From Saccoglossus kowalevskii (lineage: Eukaryota > Hemichordata > Enteropneusta > Harrimaniidae): a stretch of DNA of 20,298 nt. A model generated the notes under the pieces. That model searched no databases. It saw nothing but the letters and a program-made list of their open reading frames with translations, and had not been told where the DNA came from. The DNA lies in NCBI RefSeq assembly GCF_000003605.2, contig NW_003134981.1, forward strand, positions 1-20,298, written 5' to 3'. The translations under genes and the position numbers were made by a program. Numbering within the stretch: position 1 is the stretch's first letter; every line of letters starts with the position of its first letter. Of this stretch, positions 1 through 20,298 are shown piece by piece.

Positions 1-91
1 TAAAATATATTCAGAGTACAATTTTTTACATTCACATATTGAGGGCTGCTTATAACAGAGACATCATGGTATTACTTACATGTATTTTTAG
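1..91 (+). other. Left unique flank, probable intron 3' end
   Basis: This is AT-rich unique sequence with no similarity to the repeat unit. It holds T- and A-rich runs and ends in a pyrimidine-rich stretch and an AG at 90-91. A reading frame in register with the downstream exon is open from 43 (a TGA lies at 40-42), but that is only about 16 codons and says little. I see no promoter, RNA gene or transposon end. The intron call rests on the acceptor-like end and on the protein-like composition that begins just after it. Confidence 0.45.
80..91 (+). promoter_or_regulatory. Candidate 3' splice acceptor
   Basis: The sequence ATGTATTTTTAG ends at 91 and is followed by ATATTGGTGG. A T-rich tract directly before an AG, with the downstream base composition switching from AT-rich to a glycine-coding GGT-rich run, is what an animal 3' splice site looks like. 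TTAC at 76-79 could serve as a branch-point-like element, although it is very close to the AG. The call was made by eye and was not scored. Confidence 0.45.
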
Positions 92-252
92 ATATTGGTG
101 GTGGTATTGGTACAGGTGGGCTTGGATTAGTGCCACAAAACCCTGGATCAGGAAGACTACGTTCAACTGTTGAATGTGTTATGATATATATGGTAATGGA
201 CCAAATTAAGTCTAATCTACAAACAGAAGGACTTTATGACATATTTACTCAG
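92..252 (+). CDS. Candidate internal exon of an unrecognised protein
   Basis: This is a proposed exon of 161 bp, with two bases completing a split codon and then 53 complete codons. The frame begins with a glycine-rich run (GGGIGTGGLGL), continues through a PQNPGSG turn-like segment, and then an amphipathic helix-like stretch rich in Val, Met, Ile and Tyr, ending LQTEGLYDIFTQ. It is bounded by a T-rich AG acceptor and by CAG then GTTTGT at 250-258, so the exon would end exactly at a codon boundary. The last 21 bases (232-252) belong to the first copy of the tandem repeat. The same frame also runs on through the repeats without a stop to 7608, so the exon may be longer. TEGLY is reminiscent of the TEG(I/L)(Y/F) motif of RhoGAP domains, but the arginine-finger residue expected next is Asp here, so I do not assign that family. 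A start codon is not expected in an internal exon. Confidence 0.4.
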
Positions 253-258
253 GTTTGT
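250..258 (+). promoter_or_regulatory. Candidate 5' splice donor in first repeat unit
   Basis: CAG at 250-252 is followed by GTTTGT. This matches the CAG/GT core and +5 G of a donor, with T at +3 and +4 where purines are favoured. It falls on a codon boundary of the upstream reading frame. Most later units have GTTAGT at this point, a closer match to the GTRAGT consensus. It is the leftmost of about 316 equivalent sites 63 bp apart, so using any of them would add a whole number of 21-codon segments and keep the frame. Confidence 0.4.
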
Positions 259-1365
259 ACATGTGATAGCAACACAGCTAAAACACCAAGTCAACTTTAT
301 GACATATTTACTCAGGTTAGTACATGTTATAGCAACACAGCTAAAACACCAAGTCAGCTTTATGACATATTTACTCAGGTTAGTACATGTGATAGCAACA
401 CAGCTATAACACCAAGTCAGCTTTATGACATATTTACTCAGGTTAGTACATGTGATAGCAACACAGCTAAAACACCAAGTCAGCTTTATGACATATTTAC
501 TCAGGTTAGTACATGTGATAGCAACACAGCTAAAACACCAAGTCAGCTTTATGACATATTTACTCAGGTTAGTACATGTGATAGCAACACAGCTAAAACA
601 CCAAGTCAGCTTTATGACATATTTACTCAGGTTAGTACATGTGATAGCAACACAGCTAAAACACCAAGTCAGCTTTATGACATATTTACTCAGGTTTGTA
701 CATGTGATAGCAACACAGCTAAAACACCTAGTCAGGTTTATGACATATTTACTCAGGTTAGTACATGTGATAGCAACACAGCTAAAACACCAAGTCAGCT
801 TTATGACATATTTACTCAGGTTAGTACATGTGATAGCAACACAGCTAAAACACCAAGTCAGGTTTATAACATATTTACTCAGGTTAGTACATGTGATAGC
901 AACACAGCTAAAACACCAAGTCAGCTTTATGACATATTTACTCAGGTTTGTACATGTGATAGCAACACAGCTAAAACACCAAGTCAGCTTTATGACATAT
1001 TTACTCAGGTTAGTACATGTGATAGCAACACAGCTATAACACCAAGTCAGCTTTATGACATATTTACTCAGGTTTGTACATGTGATAGCAACACAGCTAA
1101 AACACCAAGTCAGCTTTATGACATATTTACTCAGGTTTGTACATGTGATAGCAACACAGCTAAAACACCAAGTCAGCTTTATGACATATTTACTCAGGTT
1201 TGTACATGTGATAGCAACACAGCTAAAACACCAAGTCAGCTTTATGACATATTTACTCAGGTTAGTACATGTGATAGCAACACAGCTAAAACACCAAGTC
1301 AGCTTTATGACATATTTACTCAGGTTAGTACATGTGATAGCAACACAGCTAAAACACCTAGTCAG

Positions 1366-1932
1366 CTTTATGACATATTTACTCAGGTTAGTACATGTGA
1401 TAGCAACACAGCTAAAACACCTAGTCAGCTTTATGACATATTTACTCAGGTTAGTACATGTGATAGCAACACAGCTAAAACACGAAGTCAGCTTTATGAC
1501 ATATTTACTCAGGTTAGTACATGTGATAGCAACACAGCTAAAACACCAAGTCAGGTTTATGACATATTTACTCAGGTTAGTACATGTGATAGCAACACAG
1601 CTAAAACACCAAGTCAGCTTTATGACATATTTACTCAGGTTAGTACATGTGATAGCAACACAGCTAAAACACCAAGTCAGCTTTATGACATATTTACTCA
1701 GGTTAGTACATGTGATAGCAACACAGCTAAAACACCAAGTCAGCTTTATGACATATTTACTCAGGTTAGTACATGTGATAGCAACACAGCTAAAACACCT
1801 AGTCAGGTTTATGACATATTTACTCAGGTTAGTACATGTGATAGCAACACAGCTAAAACACCAAGTCAGCTTTATGACATATTTACTCAGGTTAGTACAT
1901 GTGATAGCAACACAGCTAAAACACCAAGTCAG
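1366..1932 (+). repeat. Nine-unit block, copy 1 of an internal duplication
   Basis: Nine units with the ordered variant signature CCT-end, CGA-end, plain, CAGG-start (GTT), plain, plain, CCT-end, GTT-start, plain. The same order recurs at 8987-9553. Both copies are followed, after none or one extra plain unit, by a unit carrying TTTATTC. The shared order of rare variants, notably CGAAGT, makes common origin more likely than chance. Confidence 0.75.
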
Positions 1933-3129
1933 CTTTATGACATATTTATTCAGGTTAGTACATGTGATAGCAACACAGCTAAAACACCAAGTCAGCTTTA
2001 TGACATATTTACTCAGGTTAGTACATGTGATAGCAACACAGCTAAAACACCAAGTCAGCTTTATGACATATTTATTCAGGTTAGTACATGTGATAGCAAC
2101 ACAGCTAAAACACCAAGTCAGCTTTATGACATATTTACTCAGGTTAGTACATGTGATAGCAACACAGCTATAACACCAAGTCAACTTTATGACATATTTA
2201 CTCAGGTTAGTACATGTGATAGCAACACAGCTAAAACACCAAGTCAGCTTTATGACATATTTACTCAGGTTAGTACATGTGATAGCAACACAGCTAAAAC
2301 ACCAAGTCAGGTTTATGACATATTTACTCAGGTTAGTACATGTGATAGCAACACAGCTATAACACCAAGTCAGCTTTATGACATATTTACTCAGGTTAGT
2401 ACATGTGATAGCAACACAGCTATAACACCAAGTCAGCTTTATGACATATTTACTCAGGTTAGTACATGTGATAGCAACACAGCTAAAACACCAAGTCAGG
2501 TTTATGACATATTTACTCAGGTTAGTACATGTGATGACAACACAGCTAAAACACCAAGTCAGGTTTATAACATATTTACTCAGGTTAGTACATGTGATAG
2601 CAACACAGCTAAAACACCAAGTCAGGTTTATGACATATTTACTCAGGTTAGTACATGTGATAGCAACACAGCTATAACACCAAGTCAGCTTTATGACATA
2701 TTTACTCAGGTTAGTACATGTGATAGCAACACAGCTAAAACACCAAGTCAGCTTTATGACATATTTACTCAGGTTAGTACATGTGATAGCAACACAGCTA
2801 TAACACCAAGTCAGCTTTATGACATATTTACTCAGGTTAGTACATGTGATAGCAACACAGCTAAAACACCAAGTCAGCTTTATGACATATTTACTCAGGT
2901 TAGTACATGTGATAGCAACACATCTAAAACACCAAGTCAGGTTTATGACATATTTACTCAGGTTAGTACATGTGATAGCAACACAGCTAAAACACCAAGT
3001 CAGCTTTATGACATATTTACTCAGGTTAGTACATGTGATAGCAACACAGCTAAAACACCAAGTCAGCTTTATGACATATTTACTCAGGTTAGTACATGTG
3101 ATAGCAACACAGCTATAACACCAAGTCAG

Positions 3130-3507
3130 CTTTATGACATATTTACTCAGGTTAGTACATGTGATAGCAACACAGCTAAAACACCAAGTCAGGTTTATGA
3201 CATATTTACTCAGGTTAGTACATGTGATAGCAACACAGCTAAAACACCAAGTCAGCTTTATGACATATTTACTCAGGTTAGTACATGTGATAGCAACACA
3301 GCTATAACACCAAGTCAGCTTTATGACATATTTACTCAGGTTAGTACATGTGATAGCAACACAGCTAAAACACCAAGTCAGGTTTATGACATATTTACTC
3401 AGGTTAGTACATGTGATAGCAACACAGCTAAAACACCAAGTCAGCTTTATGACATATTTACTCAGGTTAGTACATGTGATAGCAACACAGCTATAACACC
3501 AAGTCAG
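3130..3507 (+). repeat. 189-bp trimer higher-order repeat, two copies
   Basis: Two adjacent 189-bp trimers (3130-3318 and 3319-3507) share the order: CTT-start unit with GCTAAAAC, GTT-start unit with GCTAAAAC, and CTT-start unit with GCTATAAC. This is a short higher-order repeat within the array. Confidence 0.6.
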
Positions 3508-4515
3508 CTTTATGACATATTTACTCAGGTTAGTACATGTGATAGCAACACAGCTAAAACACCAAGTCAGCTTTATGACATATTTACTCAGGTTAGTACA
3601 TGTGATAGCAACACAGCTAAAACACCAAGTCAACTTTATGACATATTTACTCAGGTTAGTACATGTGATAGCAACACAGCTAAAACACCAAGTCAGCTTT
3701 ATGACATATTTATTCAGGTTAGTACATGTGATAGCAACACAGCTAAAACACCAAGTCAGCTTTATGACATATTTACTCAGGTTAGTACATGTGATAGCAA
3801 CACAGCTAAAACACCAAGTCAGCTTTATGACATATTTACTCAGGTTAGTACATGTGATAGCAACACAGCTAAAACACCAAGTCAGCTTTATGACATATTT
3901 ACTCAGGTTAGTACATGTGATAGCAACACAGCTATAACACCAAGTCAGCTTTATGACATATTTACTCAGGTTAGTACATGTGATAGCAACACAGCTATAA
4001 CACCAAGTCAGCTTTATGACATATTTACTCAGGTTAGTACATGTGATAGCAACACAGCTATAACACCAAGTCAGCTTTATGACATATTTACTCAGGTTAG
4101 TACATGTGATAGCAACACAGCTATAACACCAAGTCAGCTTTATGACATATTTACTCAGGTTAGTACATGTGATAGCAACACAGCTAAAACACCTAGTCAG
4201 CTTTATGACATATTTACTCAGGTTAGTACATGTGATAGCAACACAGCTAAAACACCAAGTCAGCTTTATGACATATTTACTCAGGTTAGTACATGTGATA
4301 GCAACACAGCTAAAACACCAAGTCAACTTTATGACATATTTACTCAGGTTAGTACATGTGATAGCAACACAGCTAAAACACCAAGTCAGCTTTATGACAT
4401 ATTTACTCAGGTTAGTACATGTGATAGCAACACAGCTAAAACACCAAGTCAGCTTTATGACATATTTACTCAGGTTAGTACATGTGATAGCAACACAGCT
4501 AAAACACCAAGTCAA

Positions 4516-5208
4516 CTTTATGACATATTTACTCAGGTTAGTACATGTGATAGCAACACAGCTAAAACACCAAGTCAGCTTTATGACATATTTACTCAGG
4601 TTAGTACATGTGATAGCAACACAGCTAAAACACCAAGTCAGCTTTATGACATATTTACTCAGGTTAGTACATGTGATAGCAACACAGCTAAAACACCAAG
4701 TCAGCTTTATGACATATTTACTCAGGTTAGTACATGTGATAGCAACACAGCTAAAACACCAAGTCAGCTTTATGACATATTTACTCAGGTTAGTACATGT
4801 GATAGCAACACAGCTAAAACACCAAGTCAGCTTTATGACATATTTACTCAGGTTAGTACATGTGATAGCAACACAGCTAAAACACCAAGTCAGCTTTATG
4901 ACATATTTACTCAGGTTAGTACATGTGATAGCAACACAGCTAAAACACCAAGTCAGCTTTATGACATATTTACTCAGGTTAGTACATGTGATAGCAACAC
5001 AGCTAAAACACCAAGTCAGCTTTATGACATATTTACTCAGGTTAGTACATGTGATAGCAACACAGCTAAAACACCAAGTCAGCTTTATGACATATTTACT
5101 CAGGTTAGTACATGTGATAGCAACACAGCTAAAACACCAAGTCAGCTTTATGACATATTTACTCAGGTTAGTACATGTGATAGCAACACAGCTAAAACAC
5201 CAAGTCAG
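4516..5208 (+). repeat. Homogeneous run of 11 consensus units
   Basis: Eleven successive units appear identical to the consensus by eye, and are flanked on each side by CAACTT at the unit junction. This 693-bp stretch is the most uniform part of the array and suggests recent local expansion or conversion. Confidence 0.8.
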
Positions 5209-7539
5209 CTTTATGACATATTTACTCAGGTTAGTACATGTGATAGCAACACAGCTAAAACACCAAGTCAACTTTATGACATATTTACTCAGGTTAGTAC
5301 ATGTGATAGCAACACAGCTATAACACCAAGTCAGCTTTATGACATATTTACTCAGGTTAGTACATGTGATAGCAACACAGCTAAAACACCAAGTCAGCTT
5401 TATGACATATTTACTCAGGTTAGTACATGTGATAGCAACACAGCTAAAACACCAAGTCAGCTTTATGACATATTTACTCAGGTTAGTACATGTGATAGCA
5501 ACACAGCTATAACACCAAGTCAGCTTTATGACATATTTACTCAGGTTTGTACATGTGATAGCAACACAGCTAAAACACCAAGTCAGCTTTATGACATATT
5601 TACTCAGGTTAGTACATGTGATAGCAACACAGCTATAACACCAAGTCAGCTTTATGACATATTTACTCAGGTTAGTACATGTGATAGCAACACAGCTATA
5701 ACACCAAGTCAGCTTTATGACATATTTACTCAGGTTTGTACATGTGATAGCAACACAGCTATAACACCAAGTCAGCTTTATGACATATTTACTCAGGTTT
5801 GTACATGTGATAGCAACACAGCTATAACACCAAGTCAGCTTTATGACATATTTACTCAGGTTAGTACATGTGATAGCAACACAGCTATAACACCAAGTCA
5901 GCTTTATGACATATTTACTCAGGTTTGTACATGTGATAGCAACACAGCTAAAACACCAAGTCAGCTTTATGACATATTTACTCAGGTTAGTACATGTGAT
6001 AGCAACACAGCTAAAACACCAAGTCAGCTTTATGACATATTTACTCAGGTTAGTACATGTGATAGCAACACAGCTATAACACCAAGTCAGGTTTATGACA
6101 TATTTACTCAGGTTAGTACATGTGATAGCAACACAGCTAAAACACCAAGTCAGCTTTATGACATATTTACTCAGGTTAGTACATGTGATAGCAACACAGC
6201 TAAAACACCAAGTCAGCTTTATGACATATTTACTCAGGTTAGTACATGTGATAGCAACACAGCTATAACACCAAGTCAGCTTTATGACATATTTACTCAG
6301 GTTAGTACATGTGATAGCAACACAGCTATAACACCTAGTCAACTTTATGACATATTTACTCAGGTTAGTACATGTGATAGCAACACAGCTAAAACACCAA
6401 GTCAGCTTTATGACATATTTACTCAGGTTAGTACATGTGATAGCAACACAGCTATAACACCTAGTCAACTTTATGACATATTTACTCAGGTTAGTACATG
6501 TGATAGCAACACAGCTAAAACACCAAGTCAGCTTTATGACATATTTACTCAGGTTAGTACATGTGATAGCAACACAGCTAAAACACCTAGTCAACTTTAT
6601 GACATATTTACTCAGGTTAGTACATGTGATAGCAACACAGCTAAAACACCAAGTCAACTTTATGACATATTTACTCAGGTTAGTACATGTGATAGCAACA
6701 CAGCTAAAACACCAAGTCAGCTTTATGACATATTTACTCAGGTTAGTACATGTGATAGCAACACAGCTAAAACACCAAGTCAACTTTATGACATATTTAC
6801 TCAGGTTAGTACATGTGATAGCAACACAGCTAAAACACCAAGTCAACTTTATGACATATTTACTCAGGTTAGTACATGTGATAGCAACACAGCTAAAACA
6901 CCAAGTCAGGTTTATGACATATTTACTCAGGTTAGTACATGTGATAGCAACACAGCTAAAACACCAAGTCAGCTTTATGACATATTTACTCAGGTTAGTA
7001 CATGTGATAGCAACACAGCTAAAACACCAAGTCAGCTTTATGACATATTTACTCAGGTTAGTACATGTGATAGCAACACAGCTATAACACCAAGTCAGCT
7101 TTATGACATATTTACTCAGGTTAGTACATGTGATAGCAACACAGCTAAAACACCAAGTCAGCTTTATGACATATTTACTCAGGTTAGTACATGTGATAGC
7201 AACACAGCTAAAACACCAAGTCAGCTTTATGACATATTTACTCAGGTTAGTACATGTGATAGCAACACAGCTAAAACACCAAGTCAGCTTTATGACATAT
7301 TTACTCAGGTTAGTACATGTGATAGCAACACAGCTAAAACACCAAGTCAGCTTTATGACATATTTACTCAGGTTAGTACATGTGATAGCAACACAGCTAT
7401 AACACCTAGTCAACTTTATGACATATTTACTCAGGTTAGTACATGTGATAGCAACACAGCTAAAACACCAAGTCAGCTTTATGACATATTTACTCATGTT
7501 AGTACATGTGATAGCAACACAGCTATAACACCTAGTCAA

Positions 7540-7600
7540 CTTTATGACATATTTACTCAGTTAGTACATGTGATAGCAACACAGCTAAACACCAAGTCAG
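7540..7600 (+). repeat. 61-bp unit with two single-base deletions
   Basis: Relative to the consensus, this unit lacks one G at the ACTCAGGTTAG point (it reads ACTCAGTTAG at 7555-7564) and one A in the GCTAAAAC run (GCTAAAC). Phase is exact from 232 to here, and all downstream units are shifted by -2. The first deletion also removes the CAG/GTTAGT donor-like arrangement in this unit. Confidence 0.9.
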
Positions 7601-8041
7601 CTTTATGACATATTTACTCAGGTTAGTACATGTGATAGCAACACAGCTATAACACCTAGTCAGCTTTATGACATATTTACTCAGGTTAGTACATGTGATA
7701 GTAACACAGCTAAAACACCAAGTCAGCTTTATGACATATTTACTCAGGTTAGTACATGTGATAGCAACACAGCTATAACACCAAGTCAGCTTTATGACAT
7801 ATTTACTCAGGTTAGTACATGTGATAGCAACACAGCTAAAACACCAAGTCAGCTTTATGACATATTTACTCAGGTTAGTACATGTGATAGCAACACAGCT
7901 AAAACACCAAGTCAGCTTTATGACATATTTACTCAGGTTTGTACATGTGATAGCAACACAGCTATAACACCAAGTCAGCTTTATGACATATTTACTCAGG
8001 TTAGTACATGTGATAGCAACACAGCTATAACACCAAGTCAG

Positions 8042-8608
8042 CTTTATGACATATTTACTCAGGTTAGTACATGTGATAGCAACACAGCTAAAACACCAAG
8101 TCAGGTTTATGACATATTTACTCAGGTTAGTACATGTGATGACAACACAGCTATAACACCAAGTCAGCTTTATGACATATTTACTCAGGTTAGTACATGT
8201 GATAGCAACACAGCTAAAACACCAAGTCAGGTTTATGACATATTTACTCAGGTTAGTACATGTGATGACAACACAGCTATAACACCAAGTCAGCTTTATG
8301 ACATATTTACTCAGGTTAGTACATGTGATAGCAACACAGCTATAACACCAAGTCAGCTTTATGACATATTTACTCAGGTTAGTACATGTGATAGCAACAC
8401 AGCTAAAACACCAAGTCAGGTTTATGACATATTTACTCAGGTTAGTACATGTGATGACAACACAGCTATAACACCAAGTCAGCTTTATGACATATTTACT
8501 CAGGTTAGTACATGTGATAGCAACACAGCTAAAACACCAAGTCAGGTTTATGACATATTTACTCAGGTTAGTACATGTGATAGCAACACAGCTATAACAC
8601 CAAGTCAA
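8042..8608 (+). repeat. 126-bp dimer higher-order repeat with GATGAC variant
   Basis: The units alternate between a CTT-start unit with GCTAAAAC and a GTT-start unit with GATGAC and GCTATAAC. Complete dimers lie at 8042-8167, 8168-8293 and 8357-8482, with one CTT/GCTATAAC unit interposed at 8294-8356. A related dimer at 8483-8608 has ordinary GATAGC. GATGAC occurs in only two other places that I found (2533-2538 and about 16650-16655), so this cluster reflects local spread. Confidence 0.8.
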
Positions 8609-8986
8609 CTTTATGACATATTTACTCAGGTTAGTACATGTGATAGCAACACAGCTAAAACACCAAGTCAGCTTTATGACATATTTACTCAGGTTAGTAC
8701 ATGTGATAGCAACACAGCTAAAACACCAAGTCAGGTTTATGACATATTTACTCAGGTTAGTACATGTGATAGCAACACAGCTAAAACACCAAGTCAGCTT
8801 TATGACATATTTACTCAGGTTAGTACATGTGATAGCAACACAGCTATAACACCAAGTCAACTTTATGACATATTTACTCAGGTTAGTACATGTGATAGCA
8901 ACACAGCTAAAACACCAAGTCAGCTTTATGACATATTTACTCAGGTTAGTACATGTGATAGCAACACAGCTAAAACACGAAGTCAG

Positions 8987-9553
8987 CTTTATGACATATT
9001 TACTCAGGTTAGTACATGTGATAGCAACACAGCTAAAACACCTAGTCAGCTTTATGACATATTTACTCAGGTTAGTACATGTGATAGCAACACAGCTAAA
9101 ACACGAAGTCAGCTTTATGACATATTTACTCAGGTTAGTACATGTGATAGCAACACAGCTAAAACACCAAGTCAGGTTTATGACATATTTACTCAGGTTA
9201 GTACATGTGATAGCAACACAGCTAAAACACCAAGTCAGCTTTATGACATATTTACTCAGGTTAGTACATGTGATAGCAACACAGCTAAAACACCAAGTCA
9301 GCTTTATGACATATTTACTCAGGTTAGTACATGTGATAGCAACACAGCTAAAACACCAAGTCAGCTTTATGACATATTTACTCAGGTTAGTACATGTGAT
9401 AGCAACACAGCTAAAACACCTAGTCAGGTTTATGACATATTTACTCAGGTTAGTACATGTGATAGCAACACAGCTAAAACACCAAGTCAGCTTTATGACA
9501 TATTTACTCAGGTTAGTACATGTGATAGCAACACAGCTAAAACACCAAGTCAG
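8987..9553 (+). repeat. Nine-unit block, copy 2 of an internal duplication
   Basis: This block has the same ordered variants as 1366-1932: CCT-end, CGA-end, plain, GTT-start, plain, plain, CCT-end, GTT-start, plain. The preceding unit (8924-8986) also has the CGA end, unlike copy 1, where it has CCT. The offset of 7621 bp equals 121 units minus the 2-bp deletion at 7540-7600. Confidence 0.75.
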
Positions 9554-9616
9554 CTTTATGACATATTTACTCAGGTTAGTACATGTGATAGCAACACAGC
9601 TAAAACACCAAGTCAG

Positions 9617-9931
9617 CTTTATGACATATTTATTCAGGTTAGTACATGTGATAGCAACACAGCTAAAACACCAAGTCAGGTTTATAACATATTTACTCAG
9701 GTTAGTACATGTGATAGCAACACAGCTAAAACACCAAGTCAGCTTTATGACATATTTACTCAGGTTAGTACATGTGATAGCAACACAGCTAAAACACCAA
9801 GTCAGGTTTATAACATATTTACTCAGGTTAGTACATGTGATAGCAACACAGCTAAAACACCTAGTCAGGTTTATGACATATTTACTCAGGTTAGTACATG
9901 TGATAGCAACACAGCTAAAACACCAAGTCAG
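9617..9931 (+). repeat. Five-unit block, copy A
   Basis: The unit order is TTTATTC unit, GTT-start with TATAAC, plain, GTT-start with TATAAC and CCT end, then GTT-start with TATGAC. The same order recurs at 11387-11703. Confidence 0.65.
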
Positions 9932-11191
9932 CTTTATGACATATTTACTCAGGTTAGTACATGTGATAGCAACACAGCTAAAACACCAAGTCAGCTTTAT
10001 GACATATTTATTCAGGTTAGTACATGTGATAGCAACACAGCTAAAACACCAAGTCAGCTTTATGACATATTTACTCAGGTTAGTACATGTGATAGCAACA
10101 CAGCTAAAACACCAAGTCAGGTTTATAACATATTTACTCAGGTTAGTACATGTGATAGCAACACAGCTAAAACACCAAGTCAGCTTTATTACATATTTAC
10201 TCAGGTTAGTACATGTGATAGCAACACAGCTAAAACACCAAGTCAGCTTTATGACATATTTACTCAGGTTAGTACATGTGATAGCAACACAGCTAAAACA
10301 CCAAGTCAGGTTTATGACATATTTACTCAGGTTAGTACATGTGATAGCAACACAGCTAAAACACCAAGTCAGCTTTATGACATATTTACTCAGGTTAGTA
10401 CATGTGATAGCAACACAGCTAAAACACCAAGTCAGCTTTATGACATATTTACTCAGGTTAGTACATGTGATAGCAACACAGCTAAAACACCAAGTCAGCT
10501 TTATGACATATTTACTCAGGTTAGTACATGTGATAGCAACACAGCTAAAACACCAAGTCAGGTTTATAACATATTTACTCAGGTTAGTACATGTGATAGC
10601 AACACAGCTAAAACACCAAGTCAGCTTTATAACATATTTACTCAGGTTAGTACATGTGATAGCAACACAGCTAAAACACCAAGTCAGGTTTATAACATAT
10701 TTACTCAGGTTAGTACATGTGATAGCAACACAGCTAAAACACCAAGTCAGCTTTATGACATATTTACTCAGGTTAGTACATGTGATAGCAACACAGCTAA
10801 AACACCAAGTCAGCTTTATGACATATTTACTCAGGTTAGTACATGTGATAGCAACACAGCTAAAACACCAAGTCAGGTTTATGACATATTTACTCAGGTT
10901 AGTACATGTGATAGCAACACAGCTAAAACACCAGGTCAGCTTTATGACATATTTACTCAGGTTAGTACATGTGATAGCAACACAGCTAAAACACCAAGTC
11001 AACTTTATGACATATTTACTCAGGTTAGTACATGTGATACCAACACAGCTATAACACCCAGTCACCTTCATGACATATTTACTCAGGTTAGTACATGTGA
11101 TAGCAACACAGCTAAAACACCAAGTCAACTTTATGACATATTTACTCAGGTTAGTACATGTGATAGCAACACAGCTAAAACATCAAGTCAG

Positions 11192-11514
11192 GTTTATAAA
11201 CATATTTACTCAGGTTAGTACATGTGATAGCAACACAGGCTAAAACACCAAGTCAGCTTTTATGACATAATTTACTCAGGTTAGTAAATGTGATAGCAAA
11301 AACAGCTAAAACAACAAAGTCAGGTTTAGGACATATTTACTCAGGTTAGTACAAGTGATAGCAACACAGTTAAAACACCAAGTCAGCTTTATGACATATT
11401 TATTCAGGTTAGTACATGTGATAGCAACACAGTTAAAACACCAAAGTCAGGTTTATAACATATTTACTCAGGTTTAGTACATGTGATAGCAACACAGCTA
11501 AAACACCAAGTCAG
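11192..11514 (+). repeat. Degenerate five-unit patch with eight 1-bp insertions
   Basis: Successive unit lengths are 65, 67, 63, 64 and 64 bp, from eight single-base insertions, mostly homopolymer extensions (for example TTATAAAC, CACAGGC, CTTTTATG, ACATAATT, CCAAAGTC, AGGTTTAG). Several substitutions unique in the array also occur (TTAGTAAATG, ACAAGTGAT, CAGTTAAAAC, TTTAGGAC). The TTTAGGAC change creates a TAG in the otherwise open plus frame. Units just before (11003-11128) also carry unusual changes such as GATACC and CACCTTCATG. Elsewhere only three units have any indel, so the clustering is striking and could be residual sequencing error or a truly decayed segment. Confidence 0.9.
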
Positions 11515-11703
11515 CTTTATGACATATTTACTCAGGTTAGTACATGTGATAGCAACACAGCTAAAACACCAAGTCAGGTTTATAACATATTTACTCAGGT
11601 TAGTACATGTGATAGCAACACAGCTAAAACACCTAGTCAGGTTTATGACATATTTACTCAGGTTAGTACATGTGATAGCAACACAGCTAAAACACCAAGT
11701 CAG
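11387..11703 (+). repeat. Five-unit block, copy B
   Basis: This block repeats the variant order of 9617-9931 (TTTATTC; GTT plus TATAAC; plain; GTT plus TATAAC with CCT end; GTT plus TATGAC). It overlaps the right part of the indel-rich patch, so it is two bases longer. The diagnostic variants survive despite the insertions. Confidence 0.6.
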
Positions 11704-14700
11704 GTTTATAACATATTTACTCAGGTTAGTACATGTGATAGCAACACAGCTAAAACACCAAGTCAACGTCATGACATATTTACTCAGGTTAGTACATGTG
11801 ATAGCAACACAGCTAAAACACCAAGTCAGGTTTATAACATATTTACTCAGGTTAGTACATGTGATAGCAACACAGCTAAAACACCAAGTCAGGTTTATAA
11901 CATATTTACTCAGGTTAGTACATGTGATAGCAACACAGCTAAAACACCAAGTCAGGTTTATAACATATTTACTCAGGTTAGTACATGTGATAGCAACACA
12001 GCTAAAACACCAAGTCAGCTTTATGACATATTTACTCAGGTTAGTACATGTGATAGCAACACAGCTAAAACACCAAGTCAGCTTTATGACATATTTACTC
12101 AGGTTAGTACATGTGATAGCAACACAGCTATAACACCAAGTCAGCTTTATGACATATTTACTCAGGTTAGTACATGTGATAGCAACACAGCTAAAACACC
12201 AAGTCAGCTTTATAACATATTTACTCAGGTTAGTACATGTGATAGCAACACAGCTAAAACACCAAGTCAACTTTATGACATATTTACTCATGTTAGTACA
12301 TGTGATAGCAACACAGCTAAAACACCAAGTCAGCTTTATGACATATTTACTCAGGTTAGTACATGTGATAGCAACACAGCTAAAACACCAAGTCAACTTT
12401 ATGACATATTTACTCAGGTTAGTACATGTGATAGCAACACAGCTAAAACACCAAGTCAGCTTTATGACATATTTACTCAGGTTAGTACATGTGATAGCAA
12501 CACAGCTAAAACACCAAGTCAGCTTTATGACATATTTACTCAGGTTAGTACATGTGATAGCAACACAGCTAAAACACCAAGTCAGCTTTATGACATATTT
12601 ACTCAGGTTAGTACATGTGATAGCAACACAGCTAAAACACCAAGTCAGCTTTATGACATATTTACTCAGGTTAGTACATGTGATAGCAACACAGCTAAAA
12701 CACCAAGTCAGCTTTATGACATATTTACTCAGGTTAGTACATGTGATAGCAACACAGCTATAACACCAAGTCAGCTTTATGACATATTTACTCAGGTTAG
12801 TACATGTGATAGCAACACAGCTAAAACACCAAGTCAGCTTTATGACATATTTACTCAGGTTAGTACATGTGATAGCAACACAGCTATAACACCAAGTCAG
12901 CTTTATGACATATTTACTCAGGTTAGTACATGTGATAGCAACACAGCTAAAACACCAAGTCAGCTTTATGACATATTTACTCAGGTTAGTACATGTGATA
13001 GCAACACAGCTAAAACACCAAGTCAGCTTTATGACATATTTACTCAGGTTAGTACATGTGATAGCAACACAGCTATAACACCAAGTCAGCTTTATGACAT
13101 ATTTACTCAGGTTAGTACATGTGATAGCAACACAGCTAAAACACCAAGTCAGCTTTATGACATATTTACTCAGGTTAGTACATGTGATAGCAACACAGCT
13201 ATAACACCAAGTCAGCTTTATGACATATTTACTCAGGTTAGTACATGTGATAGCAACACAGCTATAACACCAAGTCAGCTTTATGACATATTTACTCAGG
13301 TTAGTACATGTGATAGCAACACAGCTAAAACACCAAGTCAGCTTTATGACATATTTACTCAGGTTAGTACATGTGATAGCAACACAGCTATAACACCAAG
13401 TCAGCTTTATGACATATTTACTCAGGTTAGTACATGTGATAGCAACACAGCTAAAACACCAAGTCAGCTTTATGACATATTTACTCAGGTTAGTACATGT
13501 GACAGCAACACAGCTAAAACACCAAGTCAGCTTTATGACATATTTACTCAGGTTAGTACATGTGATAGCAACACAGCTAAAACACCAAGTCAGCTTTATG
13601 ACATATTTACTCAGGTTAGTACATGTGATAGCAACACAGCTATAACACCAAGTCAGCTTTATGACATATTTACTCAGGTTAGTACATGTGATAGCAACAC
13701 AGCTAAAACACCAAGTCAGCTTTATGACATATTTACTCAGGTTAGTACATGTGATAGCAACACAGCTATAACACCAAGTCAGCTTTATGACATATTTACT
13801 CAGGTTAGTACATGTGATAGCAACACAGCTAAAACACCAAGTCAGCTTTATGACATATTTACTCAGGTTAGTACATGTGATAGCAACACAGCTATAACAC
13901 CAAGTCAGCTTTATGACATATTTACTCAGGTTAGTACATGTGATAGCAACACAGCTAAAACACCAAGTCAGCTTTATGACATATTTACTCAGGTTAGTAC
14001 ATGTGATAGCAACACAGCTAAAACACCAAGTCAGCTTTATGACATATTTACTCAGGTTTGTACATGTGATAGCAACACAGCTATAACACCAAGTCAGCTT
14101 TATGACATATTTACTCAGGTTAGTACATGTGATAGCAACACAGCTAAAACACCAAGTCAGCTTTATGACATATTTACTCAGGTTAGTACATGTGATAGCA
14201 ACACAGCTAAAACACCAAGTCAGCTTTATGACATATTTATTCAGGTTAGTACATGTGATAGCAACACAGCTAAAACACGAAGTCAGCTTTATGACATATT
14301 TACTCAGGTTAGTACATGTGATAGCAACACAGCTATAACACCAAGTCAACTTTATGACATATTTACTCAGGTTAGTACATGTGATAGCAACACAGCTAAA
14401 ACACCAAGTCAGCTTTATGACATATTTACTCAGGTTAGTACATGTGATAGCAACACAGCTAAAACACCAAGTCAGCTTTATGACATATTTACTCAGGTTA
14501 GTACATGTGATAGCAACACAGCTAAAACACCAAGTCAGGTTTATGACATATTTACTCAGGTTAGTACATGTGATAGCAACACAGCTAAAACACCTAGTCA
14601 GGTTTATGACATATTTACTCAGGTTAGTACATGTGATAGCAACACAGCTAAAACACCAAGTCAACTTTATGACATATTTACTCAGGTTAGTACATGTGAT

Positions 14701-16869
14701 AGCAACACAGCTAAAACACCAAGTCAACTTTATGACATATTTACTCAGGTTAGTACATGTGATAGCAACACAGCTAAAACACCAAGTCAGCTTTATGACA
14801 TATTTACTCAGGTTAGTACATGTGATAGCAACACAGCTAAAACACCAAGTCAGCTTTATGACATATTTACTCAGGTTAGTACATGTGATAGCAACACAGC
14901 TAAAACACCAAGTCAACTTTATGACATATTTACTCAGGTTAGTACATGTGATAGCAACACAGCTATAACACCAAGTCAGCTTTATGACATATTTACTCAG
15001 GTTAGTACATGTGATAGCAACACAGCTATAACACCAAGTCAACTTTATGACATATTTACTCAGGTTAGTACATGTGATAGCAACACAGCTATAACACCAA
15101 GTCAACTTTATGACATATTTACTCAGGTTAGTACATGTGATAGCAACACAGCTATAACACCAAGTCAGGTTTATGACATATTTACTCAGGTTAGTACATG
15201 TGATAACAACACAGCTATAACACCAAGTCAGGTTTATGACATATTTACTCAGGTTAGTACATGTGATAACAACACAGCTATAACACCTAGTCAGCTTTAT
15301 GACATATTTACTCAGGTTAGTACATGTGATAGCAACACAGCTAAAACACCTAGTCAGCTTTATGACATATTTACTCAGGTTAGTACATGTGATAGCAACA
15401 CAGCTAAAACACCTAGTCAGCTTTATGACATATTTACTCAGGTTAGTACATGTGATAGCAACACAGCTATAACACCAAGTCAACTTTATGACATATTTAC
15501 TCAGGTTAGTACATGTGATAGCAACACAGCTATAACACCAAGTCAACTTTATGACATATTTACTCAGGTTTGTACATGTGATAGCAACACAGCTAAAACA
15601 CCAAGTCAACTTTATGACATATTTACTCAGGTTAGTACATGTGATAGCAACACAGCTAAAACACCAAGTCAGGTTTATGACATATTTACTCAGGTTAGTA
15701 CATGTGATAGCAACACAGCTAAAACACCAAGTCAACTTTATGACATATTTACTCAGGTTAGTACATGTGATAGCAACACAGCTAAAACACCAAGTCAGCT
15801 TTATGACATATTTACTCAGGTTAGTACATGTGATAGCAACACAGCTAAAACACCAAGTCGACTTTATGACATATTTACTCAGGTTAGTACATGTGATAGC
15901 AACACAGCTAAAACACCAAGTCAGGTTTATGACATATTTACTCAGGTTAGTACATGTGATAGCAACACAGCTATAACACCAAGTCAGCTTTATGACATAT
16001 TTACTCAGGTTAGTACATGTGATAGTAACACAGCTAAAACACCAAGTCAGCTTTATGACATATTTACTCAGGTTAGTACATGTGATAGCAACACAGCTAA
16101 AACACCAAGTCAGCTTTATGACATATTTACTCAGGTTAGTACATGTGATAGCAACACAGCTATAACACCAAGTCAACTTTATGACATATTTACTCAGGTT
16201 AGTACATGTGATAGCAACACAGCTAAAACACCAAGTCAGCTTTATGACATATTTACTCAGGTTAGTACATGTGATAGCAACACAGCTATAACACCAAGTC
16301 AACTTTATGACATATTTACTCAGGTTAGTACATGTGATAGCAACACAGCTAAAACACCAAGTCAGCTTTATGACATATTTACTCAGGTTAGTACATGTGA
16401 TAGCAACACAGCTAAAACACCAAGTCAACTTTATGACATATTTACTCAGGTTAGTACATGTGATAGCAACACAGCTAAAACACCAAGTCAGCTTTATGAC
16501 ATATTTACTCAGGTTAGTACATGTGATAGCAACACAGCTAAAACACCAAGTCAACTTTATGACATATTTACTCAGGTTAGTACATGTGATAGCAACACAG
16601 CTAAAACACCAAGTCAGGTTTATGACATATTTACTCAGGTTAGTACATGTGATGACAACACAGCTAAAACACCAAGTCAGCTTTATGACATATTTACTCA
16701 GGTTAGTACATGTGATAGCAACACAGCTATAACACCAAGTCAGCTTTATGACATATTTACTCAGGTTAGTACATGTGATAGCAACACAGCTATAACACCA
16801 AGTCAGCTTTATGACATATTTACTCAGGTTAGTACATGTGATAGCAACACAGCTAAAACACCAAGTCAG

Positions 16870-16941
16870 CTTTATGACATACATTTTGTATTTACTCAGG
16901 TTAGTACATGTGATAGCAACACAGCTAAAACACCAAGTCAG
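16870..16941 (+). repeat. 72-bp unit with 9-bp insertion
   Basis: The insertion ACATTTTGT lies at 16881-16889 between TATGACAT and ATTTACTCAG. It is the only multi-base insertion in the array, and being nine bases it leaves all open frames intact. The inserted bases begin by copying the preceding ACAT, which suggests slippage plus a few non-template bases. It also enlarges the T-rich stretch before this unit's ACTCAG. Confidence 0.95.
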
Positions 16942-18012
16942 CTTTATGACATATTTACTCAGGTTAGTACATGTGATAGCAACACAGCTAAAACACCAAG
17001 TCAGCTTTATGACATATTTACTCAGGTTAGTACATGTGATAGCAACACAGCTATAACACCAAGTCAGCTTTATGACATATTTACTCAGGTTAGTATATGT
17101 GATAGCAACACAGCTAAAACACCAAGTCAGCTTTATGACATATTTACTCAGGTTAGTACATGTGATAGCAACACAGCTAAAACACCAAGTCAGCTTTATG
17201 ACATATTTACTCAGGTTAGTACATGTGATAGCAACACAGCTAAAACACCAAGTCAGGTTTATAACATATTTACTCAGGTTAGTACATGTGATAGCAACAC
17301 AGCTAAAACACCAAGTCAGCTTTATGACATATTTACTCAGGTTAGTACATGTGATAGCAACACAGCTAAAACACCAAGTCAGCTTTATGACATATTTACT
17401 CAGGTTAGTACATGTGATAGCAACACAGCTAAAACACCAAGTCAGGTTTATAACATATTTACTCAGGTTAGTACATGTGATAGCAACACAGCTAAAACAC
17501 CAAGTCAGGTTTATAACATATTTACTCAGGTTAGTACATGTGATAGCAACACAGCTAAAACACCAAGTCAGCTTTATGACATATTTACTCAGGTTAGTAC
17601 ATGTGATAGCAACACAGCTAAAACACCAAGTCAGCTTTATGACATATTTACTCAGGTTAGTACATGTGATAGCAACACAGCTAAAACACCAAGTCAACTT
17701 TATGACATATTTACTCAGGTTAGTACATGTGATAGCAACACAGCTAAAACACCAAGTCAGCTTTATGACATATTTACTCAGGTTAGTACATGTGATAGCA
17801 ACACAGCTAAAACACCAAGTCAGCTTTATGACATATTTACTCAGGTTAGTACATGTGATAGCAACACAGCTAAAACACCTAGTCAGGTTTATGACATATT
17901 TACTCAGGTTAGTACATGTGATAGCAACACAGCTAAAACACCAAGTCAGCTTTATGACATATTTACTCAGGTTAGTACATGTGATAGCAACACAGCTAAA
18001 ACACCAAGTCAG

Positions 18013-18074
18013 CTTATGACATATTTACTCAGGTTAGTACATGTGATAGCAACACAGCTATAACACCAAGTCAG
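18013..18074 (+). repeat. 62-bp unit with 1-bp deletion
   Basis: The unit begins CTTATGAC instead of CTTTATGAC, losing one T from a TTT run. It breaks the frames that had been open since the patch near 11.5 kb and shifts unit phase by -1. It could be a homopolymer sequencing error. Confidence 0.9.
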
Positions 18075-20152
18075 CTTTATGACATATTTACTCAGGTTAG
18101 TACATGTGATAGCAACACAGCTAAAACACCAAGTCAGCTTTATGACATATTTACTCAGGTTAGTACATGTGATAGCAACACAGCTAAAACACCAAGTCAG
18201 GTTTATGACATATTTACTCAGGTTAGTACATGTGATAGCAACACAGCTAAAACACCAAGTCAGCTTTATGACATATTTACTCAGGTTAGTACATGTGATA
18301 GCAACACAGCTATAACACCAAGTCAGCTTTATGACATATTTACTCAGGTTAGTACATGTGATAGCAACACAGCTAAAACACCAAGTCAGCTTTATGACAT
18401 ATTTACTCAGGTTAGTACATGTGATAGCAACACAGCTAAAACACCAAGTCAGCTTTATGACATATTTACTCAGGTTAGTACATGTGATAGCAACACAGCT
18501 AAAACACCAAGTCAGCTTTATGACATATTTACTCAGGTTAGTACATGTGATAGCAACACAGCTAAAACACCAAGTCAGGTTTATGACATATTTACTCAGG
18601 TTAGTACATGTGATAGCAACACAGCTAAAACACCAAGTCAGGTTTATGACATATTTACTCAGGTTAGTACATGTGATAGCAACACAGCTAAAACACCTAG
18701 TCAGCTTTATGACATATTTACTCAGGTTAGTACATGTGATAGCAACACAGCTAAAACACGAAGTCAGCTTTATGACATATTTACTCAGGTTAGTACATGT
18801 GATAGCAACACAGCTATAACACCAAGTCAGCTTTATGACATATTTACTCAGGTTAGTACATGTGATAGCAACACAGCTAAAACACCAAGTCAGGTTTATG
18901 ACATATTTACTCAGGTTAGTACATGTGATAGCAACACAGCTAAAACACCAAGTCAGGTTTATGACATATTTACTCAGGTTAGTACATGTGATAGCAACAC
19001 AGCTAAAACACCAAGTCAGGTTTATGACATATTTACTCAGGTTAGTACATGTGATAGCAACACAGCTAAAACACCAAGTCAGGTTTATAACATATTTACT
19101 CAGGTTAGTACATGTGATAGCAACACAGCTAAAACACCAAGTCAGCTTTATGACATATTTACTCAGGTTAGTACATGTGATAGCAACACAGCTAAAACAC
19201 CAAGTCAGGTTTATAACATATTTACTCAGGTTAGTACATGTGATAGCAACACAGCTAAAACACCAAGTCAGGTTTATGACATATTTACTCAGGTTAGTAC
19301 ATGTGATAGCAACACAGCTAAAACACCAAGTCAGGTTTATAACATATTTACTCAGGTTAGTACATGTGATAGCAACACAGCTAAAACACCAAGTCAACTT
19401 TATGACATATTTACTCAGGTTAGTACATGTGATAGCAACACAGCTAAAACACCAAGTCAGCTTTATGACATATTTACTCAGGTTAGTACATGTGATAGCA
19501 ACACAGCTAAAACACCTAGTCAGGTTTATGACATATTTACTCAGGTTAGTACATGTGATAGCAACACAGCTAAAACACCAAGTCAGCTTTATGACATATT
19601 TACTCAGGTTAGTACATGTGATAGCAACACAGCTATAACACCAAGTCAGGTTTATGACATATTTACTCAGGTTAGTACATGTGATAGCAACACAGCTATA
19701 ACACCAAGTCAGCTTCATGACATATTTACTCAGGTTAGTACATGTGATAGCAACACAGCTAAAACACCTAGTCAGGTTTATGACATATTTACTCAGGTTA
19801 GTACATGTGATAGCAACACAGCTATAACACCAAGTCAGCTTTATGACATATTTACTCAGGTTAGTACATGTGATAGCAACACAGCTATAACACCAAGTCA
19901 GCTTCATGACATATTTACTCAGGTTAGTACATGTGATAGCAACACAGCTATAACACCAAGTCAGCTTCATGACATATTTACTCAGGTTAGTACATGTGAT
20001 AGCAACACAGCTAAAACACCTAGTCAGGTTTATGACATATTTACTCAGGTTAGTACATGTGATAGCAACACAGCTATAACACCAAGTCAGCTTTATGACA
20101 TATTTACTCAGGTTAGTACATGTGATAGCAACACAGCTATAACACCAAGTCA

Positions 20153-20298
20153 CGTTGGCACAATACATTTGTATCCAACACAAAAACTATTATCCATGAC
20201 AAATAGTCTTAAAATTCTGCAATTGAAATGCCTCCTACTGCAGACTGCATATATTTAGCTTTTTCTTTTTCTAATAACATATGAATCATGATAGTGAA
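20153..20298 (+). other. Right unique flank
   Basis: The last unit runs 20091-20152, agreeing with the consensus to its penultimate base, and then gives way to unique sequence starting CGTTGGCAC. The flank is AT-rich, with no recognised gene. The reading frame continuing from the last unit stays open for 34 codons to a TAG at 20256-20258, but its composition is unremarkable. A pyrimidine-rich run (CTTTTTCTTTTTCTAATAAC, 20259-20278) could be part of an intron's 3' region, but no convincing acceptor follows within the window. Confidence 0.7.

Follow-up and report, generated by a model that had tools for sequence, protein, structure and literature searches.

A 20-kb single-locus minisatellite that probably grew by tandem duplication of an exon/intron junction of a probable DNA polymerase theta gene in Saccoglossus kowalevskii

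Introduction

The minisatellite of the human IFI6 gene reportedly supplies several splice donors; its repeat has a unit of 12 nt in about 26 copies. In this study, we describe a far longer array at a putative splice junction of the hemichordate Saccoglossus kowalevskii. The stretch analysed (the window) is the whole of contig NW_003134981.1 of assembly GCF_000003605.2, 20,298 bases long; a single tandem array of 63-bp units takes up all of it except for flanks of 231 bases (left) and 146 bases (right). The array starts within the last bases of a probable exon of POLQ, the gene of DNA polymerase theta (Pol theta). As in IFI6, the units of a tandem repeat at a junction of exon and intron, here a putative one, contain a donor-like site; however, the IFI6 unit is short and its copies few, whereas here 316 copies of 63 bp are found in another gene, and the case is known from DNA alone. 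For IFI6, two downstream repeat units serve as splice donors and give rise to three mRNA species (PMC4526556).

Related cases are described in several other papers. In human paralogs, minisatellite expansion at exon-intron boundaries alters gene structure and makes new introns (De Grassi and Ciccarelli, 2009; PMC2812944), the internal tandem repeats having on average 30-bp units repeated 4 times (PMC2812944). Our array is likewise placed at a putative exon-intron boundary, but it has 316 copies, and one copy of the exon was found. A duplicated segment containing AG/GT can supply both donor and acceptor of a new intron, and in a case from potato the duplication spans an intron-exon boundary (PMC3443670; PMC4974935). 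There, one duplication yields a new intron, whereas here hundreds of copies would lengthen an existing one. Ratchet points of recursive splicing have the form (y)nncag/gtaagt and are single sites in large introns (PMC2773006). The unit sequence ACTCAG/GTTAGT resembles both halves of this consensus except for T at +3, but hundreds of such candidate sites follow each other at a spacing of 63 bp. The Drosophila Y genes kl-3 and kl-5 have gigantic, satellite-filled introns that are transcribed (PMC6508621); these hold megabases of simple satellite, in contrast to 20 kb that probably arose from a junction of the gene itself. Finally, fragments of the gene ATF7IP2 are amplified on the W chromosome of Eremias (PMC8160951). 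This repeat is also partly made from a protein-coding gene, but its copies are spread along the chromosome and mixed with short interspersed elements (SINEs), whereas ours occupy one locus. Since IFI6, the boundary repeats of human paralogs and the Drosophila Y introns precede it, the kind of structure is already known. Judged by the literature matches listed, none of which reports this locus, the novelty lies in the gene concerned, in an array as long as 316 copies (20 kb) and in the evidence that it occupies a single locus.

Results and Discussion

A probable Pol theta exon runs into the array

The open frame upstream of the array gives, at 91-252, the translation DIGGGIGTGGLGLVPQNPGSGRLRSTVECVMIYMVMDQIKSNLQTEGLYDIFTQ. 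In a phmmer search against the PDB chains, this exon matched six Pol theta sequences at E values of 2e-4 to 3e-4, and up to E 10 one further, unrelated entry at E 1.2. Thus, all six PDB matches below E 1 are Pol theta, as expected of specific homology. With the frame extended to 43-315, the same six sequences were the only PDB matches up to E 10. The ungapped alignment spans 109-255, and identity is 42% over 48 residues. It crosses the left edge of the array at 232, where repeat unit 1 begins with what are also the last 21 bases of the exon. An initial guess by eye, which had taken the exon for part of a receptor tyrosine phosphatase, was given up when the PDB search named Pol theta.

For the position at which the homology stops we used a 41-residue peptide of human Pol theta, for which full-length alignments to six PDB sequences were obtained, with identity at every residue in at least five of them. 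In the human protein, LQDVFRKV is followed by EMPSQYCLALLELNG. At this point the array reads STCDSNTAKTPSQ and then returns to LYDIFTQ. As judged from this alignment, the Pol theta homology ends at the CAG/GTT point or one codon later, the doubt of one codon coming from the V encoded by GTT, a residue that is also present at this place in human Pol theta.

Several observations weigh against this assignment and the junction derived from it. The match to Pol theta is modest (E 2e-4, 42% identity), and the Pol theta of the fish Lates calcarifer, which is present in the PDB, was not matched by the single exon sequence up to E 10. A profile made from the window and human rows does reach the Lates calcarifer protein at 3.6e-4, a match that is partly circular because the profile includes the human row. 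No Pfam or NCBIfam model matched the exon. Homology places the exon boundary to within a codon and not to the nucleotide. In addition, the TPSQ of the unit resembles the MPSQ that follows in human Pol theta; nothing after TPSQ matches, but the likeness leaves a little room for an origin of the repeat inside the exon. By eye, nothing resembling the next Pol theta exon was seen in the 146-base right flank.

The last of these points bears on a different explanation, namely that a POLQ fragment, either stray or decayed, makes up the left flank and that the array is a non-genic minisatellite which includes the end of this fragment by chance. Only one exon is seen, the right flank holds no downstream exon, and the contig is small and almost wholly array, all of which such a fragment would account for. 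However, no stop interrupts the exon frame between 43 and the array, an acceptor-like AG precedes the exon, and a second copy of the exon DNA was not found in the genome assembly, although one would be expected if this were the spare copy. We therefore regard a stray fragment as unlikely, and the exon probably belongs to a working gene.

Structure of the array

According to Tandem Repeats Finder (TRF), 232-20152 is a single array of period 63 with 316.0 copies and 97% matches, that is, a head-to-tail minisatellite of short, highly identical units. The consensus of the unit is CTTTATGACATATTTACTCAG/GTTAGTACATGTGATAGCAACACAGCTAAAACACCAAGTCAG, and its translation in the upstream open frame is LYDIFTQ/VSTCDSNTAKTPSQ, the slash marking the CAG/GTT point in both. 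A wrap-around alignment of the 316 units contains 20 inserted or missing bases, all in four spots: 7560-7587 (2 bases), 11198-11473 (8 bases), 16877-16888 (9 bases) and 18014 (1 base). With gaps counted, the units differ from the consensus by 1.46% on average. Units 172-179 (11003-11514) combine the 8 inserted bases with many single-unit variants, among them the sole in-frame stop of a unit (unit 177); this patch looks like either a locally poor consensus or an old, decayed stretch. The longest indel is found in unit 265 (16870-16941), with 9 extra bases that the alignment divides into a run of 4 and a run of 5.

An array that fills a small contig might owe its length, or its join to the flanks, to the assembly. 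The clustering of indels in four spots, with many single-unit variants at 11198-11473, is what consensus errors would produce. However, the order of unit variants is aperiodic and no lag from 1 to 149 gives a near-zero difference, so the array is not one looped segment, and the exon is continued in frame by unit 1. An assembly artefact is therefore highly improbable.

The repeat was found at one locus only

In the 572-Mb assembly of 4,830 contigs, the left and the right flank each have one match, namely themselves. For the repeat core, 267 exact matches were found, all of them on the same strand and all 267 within this contig. Copies at other loci, as a dispersed satellite would have, were thus absent among exact matches in the part of the assembly that was searched, on which the single-locus result for the core rests. 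Because the matches of flanks and core in the searched sequence all lie at this locus, the insertion of a repeat that is common elsewhere is unlikely. Taken together with a homology that runs up to the junction, this points to an origin in place as the most likely one. The core had no exact match in collections of viral and genome contigs, and the DNA of 91-430 had none in a plasmid collection.

The joints between units carry a possible trace of the first step. The joint of units 1 and 2 reads AGTCA/ACTTTATG; an A likewise occupies base 231, just before the array, and AGTCA closes the last unit. Such a pattern is consistent with a clean duplication of 231-293, in which case the G that most units have at the joint would be a later change that spread. 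Moreover, a run of nine unit types at units 19-27 recurs at units 140-148, 121 units away, with 29.2 bits; the maximum of 100 shuffles was 17.0 bits, and the next-best run, at 16.8 bits, lies within the shuffles. Near neighbours are also more alike than random pairs of units (1.32 differences at lag 2 versus 1.58 for random pairs). Both the recurring run and the likeness of neighbours are what unequal exchange or slippage would leave.

Long arrays are common in the surroundings. Among 20 neighbouring contigs, sampled over the first 10 kb of each and some of them wholly or partly N, arrays longer than 5 kb were found in nine. Long minisatellites with unrelated units thus abound in the small contigs of this assembly. 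The periods of these nine arrays are 26, 107, 42, 49, 46/92, 78, 34, 42 and 26, and most of the sampled stretch is covered. A blastn search of the 20 sampled contigs detected no relative of the 63-bp unit.

Donor-like sites in the units

The preliminary description, drawn up from the sequence alone, had announced about 316 tandem donor-like sites in 232-20152. The alignment bears this out: CAG/GT is kept in 313 of 316 units and the GT of the donor-like point is intact in all 316. It had also given every unit as ACTCAG followed by GTTAGT, which is true of most units but not of the first, where GTTTGT is found. The variants at this point are CAGGTTAGT in 300 units, CAGGTTTGT in 13 and CATGTTAGT in 2, and one unit lacks the last G of CAG. 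The array thus begins at a putative exon end and carries a donor-like site in each unit, as a splice-donor minisatellite of the IFI6 type does.

By a human donor matrix, the GTTAGT of the consensus scores 4.60 and the GTTTGT of unit 1 scores 1.6. The calculated duplex energies with U1 are closer to each other, at -9.6 kcal/mol for the consensus and -8.9 kcal/mol for unit 1, compared with -14.0 kcal/mol for a perfect site. No other GT of the consensus unit scores above 0 on either strand. The weaker GTTTGT is present in units 1, 8, 12, 14-16, 85, 88, 89, 91, 123, 220 and 244, with a clustering near the exon, as units 1-16 include 6 of these 13 and units 1-91 include 10. The unit also has an acceptor-like half, TTTACTCAG/GTTAGT, with T at +3. 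By crude acceptor weights, it scores 1.02 compared with 1.15 for the putative acceptor of the exon.

It might be argued that the donor-like point is there by chance and that a minisatellite grew across it, with no intron starting at 252. A donor of nearly equal score (4.46 versus 4.60), CAGGTGGGC at 113-121 with the site at 116, lies inside the exon, so the strength of the donor alone is not rare. Furthermore, constraint specific to the donor was not found. A block of 21 columns with low variation (permutation p 0.028, 31 types) was lost when 11 types confined to units 170-178 were dropped (20 types, p 0.57), and as no signal survived this control we claim no donor constraint. On the other hand, among 20,000 mononucleotide-shuffled units a donor of at least 4.6 occurred in 1.6%, and within 6 nt of a fixed point in 0.3%. 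None of the nine neighbouring arrays contains a donor scoring 4.6 on either strand, the best reaching 1.6, and the Pol theta homology stops at the CAG/GTT point, to within one codon. We consider a chance origin of the site very unlikely.

Reading frame and coding constraint

The exon frame is open from 43 to 7605, and beyond the last unit the unit frame stays open for about 35 codons into the right flank. This speaks for a Pol theta variant in which the exon reads through the units and the protein gains either a long stretch of 21-residue repeats or a tail made of them, as does the resemblance of TPSQ to the human MPSQ. However, the openness is shared by an antisense frame (220-7560) and is thus a consequence of unit composition. 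Among 31 substitution types, 25 are non-synonymous, 5 synonymous and 1 is a stop, compared with 145, 38 and 6 possible single changes. In the exon-derived 21 nt of the unit, 7 types are non-synonymous, 1 is a stop and none of the 8 is synonymous. The units show no sign of coding constraint, and their substitution types occur in neutral proportions. In addition, the frame is broken at 7560-7587, although the missing bases could be sequence errors, and no Pol theta sequence follows after the array. Translation of the repeat is thus very improbable.

Profile searches gave little. The 315 residues of exon and array matched eight Pfam families below their cut-offs. DUF6199 passed its whole-protein cut-off with 50.1 bits, which we read as summed repeat noise because no single stretch passes. 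Rfam gave no match at gathering scores. In three protein scans, 120, 141 and 127 stretches were matched by pattern and none was confirmed.

Proposed origin and consequences for splicing

Our preferred explanation, which we hold to be probable, is a single-locus minisatellite at the 5' end of a POLQ intron that grew by tandem duplication of the exon/intron junction in place. A 63-bp segment, comprising the last 21 bp or so of the exon and the first 42 bp or so of the intron with the 5' splice site, would have been duplicated in tandem and would then have grown to 316 copies, probably via unequal exchange or slippage. The preliminary description had proposed amplification of the junction as well; the arrest of the homology at CAG/GTT and the confinement of flanks and core to this locus support it, and an insertion from elsewhere, which would have spoken against it, was not seen. 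Its statement that the donor point is in frame with the upstream exon also holds, as the open frame 43-7605 contains the junction.

Each copy would carry a donor-like CAG/GTTAGT or GTTTGT, preceded by bases that are acceptor-like too. Most likely, the array is transcribed and removed within a long intron from the first or an early donor. In our reading, the array is neutral intron sequence that is lost in splicing. With the native donor, the ancestral mRNA would be restored. Since one unit equals 21 codons, any donor from unit 2 to about unit 116 would lengthen the message by 21 codons or a multiple thereof and leave the frame as it is. Here the preliminary description, in which any downstream donor leaves the frame unchanged, went too far: beyond unit 116, the frame is lost through the missing bases at 7560 and 7587 and runs into a stop at 7606. 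The variation of protein length in steps of 21 codons that it envisaged, with an unusual substrate for U1, would therefore be limited to about the first 116 units, and the substitution types offer no hint of translated units. Splicing from unit to unit would remove whole units and regenerate the donor, with the message unchanged. Such splicing between units would follow the logic of ratchet points and of introns made by AGGT duplication.

It is tempting to speculate further on a splice ladder that erases itself, in which each CAG/GT would act as acceptor and donor at once, the 20-kb block would be cleared either step by step or from any unit with the mRNA unaltered, and rare use of an early donor would insert 21-residue blocks just before the Pol theta polymerase domain. 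We consider this unlikely, but if true, the junction's own signals would explain why so large an array is tolerated there. If the array is transcribed, the spliceosome has to choose there among 313 near-identical donors, spaced at 63 bp and with the first one weaker than most, and the locus is a natural experiment on this choice. The array is also an example of the size that a tandem duplication across a splice junction can reach, a matter of interest for the lengthening of introns and for intron gain by AG/GT duplication. That the gene probably encodes DNA polymerase theta, and thus a polymerase that acts in end joining, is a mere curiosity.

Other features of the contig

The features of the window are collected in Table 1.

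Table 1. Position and basis of the features assigned in the 20,298-base window.
Feature	Position	Strand	Basis
Putative intron end and 3' splice site, TTACATGTATTTTTAG	62..91	+	Sequence; crude acceptor score 1.15
Probable POLQ exon ending in CAG	92..252	+	phmmer against PDB; ungapped alignment, 42% identity
First donor-like site, CAG/GTTTGT (native junction in the favoured model)	253..258	+	Sequence; score 1.6
Array of 316 units of 63 bp	232..20152	+	TRF; wrap-around alignment; genome matches at this locus only
Frameshift in unit 117 due to two missing bases (7560, 7587); stop at 7606	7560..7606	+	Alignment
Unique right flank, CGTTGGCACAATAC	20153..20298	+	One genome match, itself

On the minus strand, an open frame of 29 codons (20212-20298) runs inward from the contig end and reads FTIMIHMLLEKEKAKYMQSAVGGISIAEF before a stop. 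It has no match in PDB, Pfam or NCBIfam and may be due to chance. The right flank itself is presumably the remainder of the same intron. Its best acceptor-like site is the AG at 20242-20243, with a score of 2.61, which in phase 0 is followed by ACT GCA TAT ATT TAG.

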